Source of the DNA: Thermaerobacter subterraneus DSM 13965
GTDB lineage: Bacteria > Bacillota > Sulfobacillia > Thermaerobacterales > Thermaerobacteraceae
DNA: 64,000 bases
Direction: 5' to 3'
Assembly (NCBI RefSeq): GCF_000183545.2
Contig: NZ_JH976535.1
Span: forward strand, 14,840 to 78,839
Made by a program: the position numbers and the translations under genes
The notes under the pieces: generated by a model
Told to the model about the DNA's origin: nothing
What the model saw: the letters and a program-made list of their open reading frames with translations, nothing else
The model's database searches: none
In this document: in pieces, positions 37,410 through 39,383 of the stretch
How the letters are laid out: each line of letters starts with the position of its first letter
Position numbering within the stretch: the stretch's first letter is position 1

Positions 37410-37438
37410 ATTCTAGTGCGCCGCCGCAGGCTCGTCCA
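37410..37438 (-). promoter_or_regulatory. Promoter for tRNA-Leu inside the divIC 3' end
   Basis: TGGACG, 17-base spacer, TAGAAT on the minus strand; the -10 overlaps the divIC stop codon. Transcription would begin near 37403, about 27 bases before the tRNA. Confidence 0.45.
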
Positions 37439-38123
37439 CCAGCTGGATGACCGTCTCGCCCGGCTGCACCAGCCCCAGGCGTTCCCGGGCCGTCTCGTCC
37501 ACGTAGGCCGGATCCTGGATCCGCCGGCGGGCCGCCTCCAGCTCGGCCGCCCGGTCCTGCAGGACCTGGACCTGCCGGTCCAGCGCGCGCAGTTCCTGGC
37601 GCGCCTGCCAGAGGGCCCACTGCTGAAGGACGAGCCCCGAGAGCAGGTAGGCGGCCACCACCACTGCCGCCAGCCGCCCCAGGCGCAGCCGGAGACGCCG
37701 CCGTACGGGACGGCGCCCCGGCCCGGGCACCGGCGCCCCCCGCCCACCGGCCCCGGGCGGCCAACCGGGACCGGCTGCCTGCCCAGGACCGCGGTGGAAC
37801 CCGGCAACGGCGCGCCCCGCACGGGCACCGCCGCCTCCCGTTACCGGCCGCAGGGGCGTGACGGAAGCCGCCGCGGCCCGGTGTGCCGCCGCCCGGCCCT
37901 GCGGGGTGCCCCGGCCGGCGATCCGCGCCCGGCTCGAAGGGTTGGGCGAAGGGCGCCCGGCGCCCGCCAGGACGCTACCGTCCGGACCGGTGCCGGGGCC
38001 GCGCCCGCCGCGCTCCGCCCGTAACGCATCCCCGGCGCCGGGAGCCCGGCCGTCACCTTCCCGTCCCGTCCACCCCGGCTCCCCCTGGCGCATCCAGCGA
38101 GTTCCCACCGGACGAACCGGCAT
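37413..38123 (-). CDS. divIC: Septum formation initiator DivIC/FtsB family
   Basis: Bitopic cell-division protein. One membrane helix (LAAVVVAAYLLSGLVLQQWA), then a coiled coil (ELRALDRQVQVLQDRAAELE) and the conserved end DPAYVDETARERLGLVQPGE. About 125 residues before the helix are Gly/Arg/Pro-rich, far longer than in Bacillus DivIC. The start is uncertain: ATG at 38123 has GGGAGG ten bases upstream; GTG at 38327 would overlap the preceding HTH gene, and later starts are possible. Synteny with yabP, yabQ and spoIIE supports the assignment. Confidence 0.85.
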   Translation of the reverse strand: MPVRPVGTRWMRQGEPGWTGREGDGRAPGAGDALRAERGGRGPGTGPDGSVLAGAGRPSPNPSSRARIAGRGTPQGRAAAHRAAAASVTPLRPVTGGGGARAGRAVAGFHRGPGQAAGPGWPPGAGGRGAPVPGPGRRPVRRRLRLRLGRLAAVVVAAYLLSGLVLQQWALWQARQELRALDRQVQVLQDRAAELEAARRRIQDPAYVDETARERLGLVQPGETVIQLVDEPAAAH

Positions 38124-38298
38124 CCCTGCCCAACCTCCCTGCGTCACCGCGGCCTGTGGCCCTGGCACCGTACCCTCCATCCCCACCCCGCGGACGGCTC
38201 GGGGCGGCCCGCCAGGCCACGGCCCCTGGGCGTCTCTGGCTGGCCCTTGCAACCCCTCGGTGCGCCGGCGGTGCCGGCAAGCCGCCATCAGGCGTCCT

Positions 38299-38559
38299 TT
38301 AGCGGATCTCTTCGCCGCCGCCTTCACCGTCCAGCGCTTCCTCGTCGCCTTCGCCGAACAACCGCAGCGGGTCGCCGTCGACGACGATGACCACCTCGTA
38401 GCCCTTGCTGCGCGCCCGGTTGTAGAGGGTGGCCACGGTGCCGGGCGCCAGCCCCAGGCGGCGGGCGATGGCCTCGGTGCTGTAGCCCGTCTCCTTCAGG
38501 ACGACCACCTGGCGCTCGCGAAAGCTCAGGCGCTCGGCCCCGCGAATCTCGATGCGCAT
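38299..38559 (-). CDS. Small sigma-region-4-like HTH protein
   Basis: 86 residues. LSFRERQVVVLKETGYSTEA, then IARRLGLAPGTVATLYNRAR is a typical LuxR/sigma region 4 helix-turn-helix; the C-terminal half (YEVVIVVDGDPLRLFGE) is short and acidic. It has no region 2, so it is a DNA-binding accessory rather than a complete sigma factor. It sits between yabQ and divIC, where Bacillus has no such gene. Its upstream region contains two inverted DnaA boxes. Target unknown. Confidence 0.8.
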   Translation of the reverse strand: MRIEIRGAERLSFRERQVVVLKETGYSTEAIARRLGLAPGTVATLYNRARSKGYEVVIVVDGDPLRLFGEGDEEALDGEGGGEEIR

Positions 38560-38598
38560 GGCCGGCTGGCGACCCCCGATGTCCGCCCTCGAGCGAGG

Positions 38599-38630
38599 TT
38601 ATCCACAAATTACACACATACTGTGGACAA
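38599..38630. promoter_or_regulatory. Inverted pair of DnaA boxes
   Basis: TTATCCACA (38599-38607) is the consensus DnaA box; TGTGGACAA (38622-38630) is its inverse with one change. Spacer is 14 AT-rich bases. A TATAAA element (38633-38638, minus strand) directly upstream may be the HTH gene promoter, so DnaA could control it. Confidence 0.6.
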
Positions 38631-38714
38631 ACTTTATACAGCAGGTACCGGGTACGGTTCGCCGGGGGAAGGGGGATTCCTGCCGGTCCCCCACCTGGGA
38701 TCCGCCGCCGGCCG

Positions 38715-39383
38715 TCACCCCGCCGGGGGCGGGGGTGGCGCGCCCTGGTGGGGCCCGATCAAGGCGGCCAGGACGGCCCGCAGCCGGTTCCACTGCCCGG
38801 ACAGCCGGCGGCCGGCCGCCGCCCGGTACCGGCGCCAGGGATCGAGAAGGTGGCGTCGCAGGGCGGCCCGGCAGGGGTCGATGAAGTGCCTTTGCACCGG
38901 AATGGAGACGGGTGCCAGCAGCCAGCCCAGGGGGATGGTCACCGGCTTGAGCAGCCACCGCACCAGCAGCGCCAGGCTGCGTACCACCCACCGGCAGCCC
39001 CGCCCCAGGGCGCCGGCGGCACGCCGGTTCCACCGGATGAACCGGAGGGTGCCCTGGCTGGTGGCCCGGTAGGTCGCTGCCAGGGCGGGATAGAGGAAGG
39101 GTGAGCCCAGCCCGGCGTAAACCCCCAGGCCCAGGGCCAGGCCCAGGAAGGTGAAGGTGCGCACCTGGCCCCAGTTGCCCCATCCCCAGGCCAGAAGCAC
39201 CAGAGGCAGGGCCAGCGCCCAGAAGGCCCCGTCCAGCAGGGCGTCCAGCCAGGGGCGGCGGGGCGGCCGGCCGCCGCCCAGGACGGCACGCAGGGCGCGG
39301 CAGGCATCAAAGAGAAAGCCCAGGGTGAGGCCCAGGGCCACGTTGACGGCAAGCATGTACAACTGCACGGTCAGGGGGAACAT
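38715..39383 (-). CDS. yabQ: Spore cortex protein YabQ
   Basis: Membrane protein needed for spore cortex formation, made in the mother cell in Bacillus. N-terminal VQLYMLAVNVALGLTLGFLF and DALLDGAFWALALPLVLLAW are the first helices and match the YabQ domain. The C-terminal half is Arg/Pro-rich and basic. 222 residues. Follows yabP by 46 bases. Confidence 0.9.
   Translation of the reverse strand: MFPLTVQLYMLAVNVALGLTLGFLFDACRALRAVLGGGRPPRRPWLDALLDGAFWALALPLVLLAWGWGNWGQVRTFTFLGLALGLGVYAGLGSPFLYPALAATYRATSQGTLRFIRWNRRAAGALGRGCRWVVRSLALLVRWLLKPVTIPLGWLLAPVSIPVQRHFIDPCRAALRRHLLDPWRRYRAAAGRRLSGQWNRLRAVLAALIGPHQGAPPPPPAG

Follow-up and report, generated by a model that had tools for sequence, protein, structure and literature searches.

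An array of DnaA-box units lies directly upstream of a gene for an 86-residue HTH protein in Thermaerobacter subterraneus DSM 13965. Both the pairing of the boxes and their conservation in relatives are far beyond chance, and it is the HTH gene to which the array belongs, not the division gene divIC. Arrays of this kind precede the gene in a large group of deep-branching Firmicutes. Since the row of boxes follows the HTH gene wherever that gene is placed, the gene is probably under replication-cycle control; we favour, with moderate confidence, DnaA acting through the array as the means of this control.

Layout of the array

The window, that is, the whole stretch of 64,000 nucleotides that was analysed, contains the array in the 155-bp gap between yabQ and the HTH gene (38560-38714), the genes being on the minus strand. 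The features, in the order of transcription, are the following:

38715-39383, minus strand: yabQ, the upstream neighbour (PF09578, E 1.9e-14)
38657-38681, minus strand: putative SigH-like promoter AGGAATc-12-GGCGAAc, agreeing with 10 of 11 consensus positions
38633-38641, minus strand: outer unit CTGTATAAA, with consensus TTGTAcTAA in relatives (profile of 82 loci)
38622-38630, minus strand: DnaA box TTGTCCACA, one mismatch, G at base 3; the first full unit
38610-38618, plus strand: degenerate middle unit TTACACACA, one mismatch to TTRTNCACA
38599-38607, plus strand: exact DnaA box TTATCCACA; third array unit in the transcription sense
38299-38559, minus strand: gene of the 86-residue HTH protein, of sigma-region-4/LuxR type (PF08281)
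37413-38327, minus strand: divIC open frame, with the DivIC domain at about 37434-37661 (PF04977, E about 1e-16 to 6.6e-16)

Pfam matches for HTH, YabQ and DivIC bear out an earlier claim, made in a preliminary description of this DNA, that a sigma-region-4-like protein of 86 residues is encoded between yabQ and divIC; YabP was also identified among the neighbours.

The DnaA box is given as TTATNCACA in a published account (PMC4447404). With TTRTNCACA allowed, the boxes of the array fit this form: one is exact, one has a G at base 3, and one is degenerate. The preliminary description had pointed to an inverted pair of boxes separated by 14 bases, and this pair was located as the exact TTATCCACA and the one-mismatch TTGTCCACA. 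Read in the transcription sense, the three units are plus, minus and minus, and their starts lie 12 and then 11 bases apart; the position of the middle unit is conserved, whereas its orientation differs by lineage. The outer unit lies 11 bases before the first box and contains the TATAAA (38633-38638, minus strand) that had been put forward as an element beside the boxes. The hexamer is indeed present, but it was rejected as a usual -10: no sigma-70 promoter was found in 37700-38900 of the window, and the hexamer falls inside the fourth array unit, which reads TTGTAcTAA in relatives.

Taken singly, 9-mers of this kind are not unusual in the window, where 3 occur with at most one mismatch, compared to 1.54 expected (21 of 100 shuffles reach 3). 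Across the five nearest genomes, AGGAATCC, GCGAA, TTGTCCACA and TGTGGATAA are invariant, TGTGGATAA being the block that covers the box at 38599-38607. Other identities for the array were considered and rejected. An RNA hairpin made of the two full boxes could pair here, but the pairing is broken, as judged by eye, in loci with TTGTACACA and TGTGAATAA. Sites of the SpoIIID and LexA types were considered from their consensus and set aside.

Conservation of the array in relatives

Conservation was assessed with a strict score and a looser count. In the strict score, each of three units brought at most 8 matches to TTRTNCACA (maximum 24), in a plus/minus/minus layout with units 12 then 11 or 12 bp apart, at most 150 bp upstream of the start. 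The looser count asked for at least three units spaced by 10-13 bp, whatever their orientation. The genome set comprised the window's own genome and 60 relatives, hence 61 genomes, 54 of them with an HTH locus (this includes G028, whose HTH frame is broken, with an approximate start). A second set, which overlaps the 54 genomes, consisted of 110 loci reduced to 102 distinct ones; the start pattern failed to pick up L168 and L194, and six loci were duplicate, short or with N.

A strict score of at least 20 of 24 was found in 37 of the 54 genomes; none of 5400 dinucleotide shuffles and none of 999 random windows taken from these loci scored as high. For the second, overlapping set, the proportion was 81 of 102 loci (0 of 5100 shuffles). 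The looser count was satisfied in 46 of the 54 genomes (6 of 1620 shuffles, 0 of 997 random windows), 8 genomes having fewer than three units, and in 93 of the 102 overlapping loci (36 of 3060 shuffles). In 45 of 47 loci (47 of the 54, seven starts being unrecognised), the rest of the locus, up to some 12 kb, had no module with a higher score. Conservation in relatives, on which the preliminary description had made its proposal depend, is therefore a property of these boxes.

At three loci (L222, L224 and L226), long one-sided rows of 11-bp units, for example TTGTCGATAAC or TTGGGATAAGC repeated, lengthen the array upstream of the HTH gene to many units, a feature of some lineages. A different kind of variant was seen in G028, a single-contig genome of 3.6 Mb, whose HTH gene runs over two reading frames and whose array is kept (L120, G028:C1:3441361-3441587); this reflects a frameshift or a sequencing error.

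Linkage of the array to the HTH gene

The gene order yabQ, HTH, divIC was found in most loci. Among the 53 relatives and the window, the HTH gene precedes DivIC in almost all loci with enough sequence; of 108 further loci, 94 have DivIC next, 11 gave no DivIC and 3 were too short to tell, although one of the 11 (L165) does hold DivIC on reading of its sequence. divIC is probably a downstream gene of the same transcription unit as the HTH gene. In the window, the HTH stop is some 640 bases (37662-38298) away from the conserved DivIC domain, and the DivIC frame is open up to 38327; the distance is much shorter in many relatives.

So regular an order would suit boxes that serve divIC or the timing of sporulation, with the HTH gene as a passenger, and a direct tie of the boxes to divIC had in fact been proposed. 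Loci in which the genes are parted decide otherwise. The HTH gene is missing in 7 of the 61 genomes. yabQ and divIC adjoin in six of these (G025, G027, G030, G031, G049 and G058), and no array was found at any of the six loci, where the best module scored 13 to 17 of 24; in G046, only another DivIC-family gene was recovered. Conversely, all 10 loci at which DivIC does not follow the HTH gene keep an array of five or more units. Because several of them are close relatives, these ten relocated loci correspond to about three separate placements. Four of the relocated neighbourhoods were read, and Pfam names were obtained for three: in L158 the neighbours are an HhH-GPD base-excision repair gene, and a short-chain dehydrogenase with an isochorismatase-family gene; in L174, a DFP/flavoprotein gene with a DUF47 gene; and in L171, an MFS and an ECF transporter gene. 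The gene and its array are also kept in G013 and G038, in which no YabP or YabQ was detected (scores 23 and 22), and a sporulation-only role was dropped for that reason. Absent at HTH-less divIC loci and kept at relocated HTH genes, the array belongs to the HTH gene. The proposed direct tie to divIC is not supported, and the wider reading in terms of divIC or sporulation timing is disfavoured, to the point that we consider it extremely unlikely.

The same loci bear on another possibility, namely that the array is a DnaA titration or reactivation site (datA- or DARS-like) buffering DnaA near the origin, with its position before a gene being secondary. In the window's genome, some 64 kb separate the box cluster from dnaA, and many loci have three to nine units, as such a site might; these are nevertheless few units, and the array precedes the HTH gene, moves with it, and stands directly after a promoter-like element. 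Buffering of this kind seems to us very unlikely, and control of the HTH gene by DnaA remains the preferred reading.

The HTH protein and its distribution

The protein matches Sigma70_r4_2 (PF08281) with 36.8 bits, for a cut-off of 25.7, and LuxR-type HTH families more weakly. It is above the Pfam cut-offs for the sigma-70 region 4 and LuxR-NarL HTH domains (PF08281, PF00196) and has a similar predicted fold. Unlike those domains, it stands alone as a protein of 80-90 aa that lacks sigma region 2, has strands flanking the HTH, carries a conserved KGYqVViV..GDPL motif and has an acidic tail. No region 2 family was among the Pfam matches of the 86-residue protein, which does not qualify as a complete sigma factor. 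Pfam offered no specific name for the family, and NCBIfam had none above cut-off among the matches listed; PHROGs matches were to general HTH/sigma families, and a sequence search against solved structures gave weak matches only. The AlphaFold model (pLDDT 87.3) has a strand at 2-6, three helices and a strand at 55-59, and aligned best to sigma region 4 (Z 8.1, rmsd 2.2 A, 53 residues), with NarL-type domains tied. In an alignment of 40 sequences, the conserved parts were the MxIEIRG start, the KGYqVViV..GDPL segment and the acidic tail.

The protein was found in 54 of the 61 genomes and in 43 of 50 genera. At the level of the phylum, 118 of 299 sampled genomes gave a match below 1e-20 (hand count), and homologues are encoded on 354 stretches of the genome collection; among the matches listed (80 of the 354), the carriers include Sulfobacillus, Pelotomaculum, Desulfotomaculum, Thermincola and Candidatus Fermentithermobacillus. 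The gene had been taken for an insertion between yabQ and divIC. Given its presence in most of these genomes and across the phylum, it is not a local insertion; rather, the gene is widespread, and its usual position is ahead of divIC.

Comparison with the module upstream of dnaA

The paired core of the array was searched for as TTRTNCACA-N3-TGTGNAYAA, with the reversed pattern as control. At one mismatch or less, it occurs at two sites only in the 2.89-Mb genome: the HTH locus and upstream of dnaA (C1:118204). The DnaA-box character that had been assigned to the boxes gains support from this module of the same type upstream of dnaA. A module scoring at least 20 of 24 was found at 31 of the 36 dnaA loci examined, out of 60 dnaA-bearing genomes (in two of these, G002 and G028, dnaA is at the contig start and the upstream DNA is outside the locus). 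The pattern at dnaA is TTATnCACA-3-TGTGGATAA-3-TGTGnATAA, often with a further weak unit. The dnaA promoter/oriC cluster thus resembles the HTH array in having the same 9-mer and an inverted pair 12 bp apart, followed by minus-strand units, and in the window's genome, G001 and G004 the 12/11 spacing is found at both loci. As four HTH-less genomes (G025, G027, G031 and G058) carry the dnaA module at 20 of 24 or more, this type of array at dnaA is independent of the HTH protein.

The two arrays nevertheless differ in detail. The first box begins with TTGT at the HTH gene and not TTAT, base 3 being G in 34 of 37 HTH-gene arrays, compared to A in 29 of 31 dnaA arrays. The step to the third unit is 11 in 35 of the 37, compared to 12 in 26 of the 31. 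The HTH array also has the extra outer TTGTAcTAA, and it precedes the HTH gene, not dnaA. Differences in base 3, step and outer unit argue against a plain operator for DnaA only.

They bring in the possibility that the HTH protein alone is responsible: bound along the array as successive monomers or dimers, each a helical turn from the next, it would repress its own gene, and the likeness to DnaA boxes would either be convergent or allow the two proteins to compete for the sites. Sigma-region-4 domains read TTG-type elements, which counts for such autoregulation, and the first box is held to TTGT[CA]CACA, more tightly than at dnaA; yet all the defining bases of the DnaA box are matched in the full units. 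The outer unit beside a box, searched for as TTGTAnTAA, gave 14 matches in 14 of the 61 genomes, all at the HTH gene, but degenerate outer units also occur at dnaA, even without the HTH gene. That array and gene have been gained, lost and moved together is what would be expected of an autorepressor. Against this, a near-identical dnaA module persists in the four HTH-less genomes, and few other sites were found in the genomes, which would leave an oddly specialised regulator devoted to one operator. Autoregulation without DnaA is in our opinion the strongest rival, to be taken seriously though less likely than control by DnaA.

Control by DnaA and use of the array by the HTH protein are compatible, and both could bind. 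A further-reaching scheme can be imagined, in which the HTH protein would read DnaA boxes and compete with DnaA at its own promoter and at the dnaA/oriC module, in a mutual feedback loop, and would be a widespread regulator of replication initiation in deep-branching Firmicutes. This we regard as speculative and improbable.

Putative promoter and proposed control by DnaA

The sequence preceding the array was compared with the SigH consensus of B. subtilis, AGGAWW, 10-13 bp, RNNGAAT. With this consensus, 56 of 101 loci had an element with at least 10 of 11 positions, compared to 3.3% of shuffles, and 25 of the 101 had all 11, compared to 0.1%. The -10 of the SigH-like element usually ends 15-28 bases before the first box, and AGGAATC and GCGAA of the putative promoter are invariant in the five near genomes. 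At Sulfobacillus-type loci, TATAAT-like elements were seen by eye in place of the SigH-like element. With either promoter type, the array would span about +1 to +50, where repressor operators are usually found.

Control of the HTH gene by DnaA may then be pictured as follows. Transcription of the HTH gene would start at the SigH-like promoter just upstream of the array. DnaA would bind cooperatively to the units, whose spacing of 11-12 bp puts them on the same side of the helix, and would block or tune transcription, repression being the simplest form, as at dnaA. HTH expression would consequently vary with free or ATP-bound DnaA, as does the expression of dnaA itself. Where divIC lies downstream, it would be affected by read-through, and may simply ride along.

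Relation to known systems

To our knowledge, few conserved targets of DnaA as a transcription factor are known outside dnaA. If a single operator has stayed with one small regulator gene throughout a class and in lineages outside it, that gene would be a conserved output of DnaA, and its promoter would be a defined one on which to test how the replication state is read. Judging from its sequence, the array would be of a known kind, a DnaA-box operator, and a variant of it in being attached to the HTH gene, having an 11-bp outer unit and occurring so broadly.

A 2021 review describes the repression of dnaA by DnaA, its control of sda and its binding to the ftsL promoter in B. subtilis, and states that a major effect of DnaA on the timing of cytokinesis has been shown in no species (PMC8203912). 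The sda gene encodes a small regulatory protein, and DnaA binds the sda promoter region, as described in the same text (PMC8203912); the likeness here lies in predicted DnaA sites. The sda product is a phosphorelay inhibitor, whereas the HTH protein is predicted to bind DNA, and the operator described here, unlike that of sda, spans the class and reaches the wider phylum. The ftsL promoter offers, in that text, a DnaA site before a division gene (PMC8203912), again comparable through predicted sites; the sites found here track the HTH gene, not the division gene. A literature search, covering few subscription papers, gave no paper pairing a DnaA box with divIC and, judged by the titles listed, none describing the operator.

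Other sites in the genomes

When two mismatches were allowed, the paired core had three further sites in the window's own genome, where the reversed control had none; the reversed pattern was found 0 times in each of the 61 genomes. Among the matches listed for these genomes, most paired-core sites are at the HTH gene or beside dnaA. At least one other place each was present, among the matches listed, in G001, G005, G009, G010, G021, G029, G031, G037, G040, G041, G053 and G056.

Another exact TTATCCACA, with box-like repeats close by (TGTGGATAATGTGGATGATCTGTTGATAA), lies near position 1501 of L005 (G000:C1:2438025), and is possibly a further DnaA site in the window's genome. A third conserved inverted box module was observed near position 1501 of L240-L242, which come from one family (G041, G021 and G056). 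By Pfam, its neighbours are a NUDIX gene and/or a sigma-70 family gene, and the module suggests an additional, family-specific target of DnaA.
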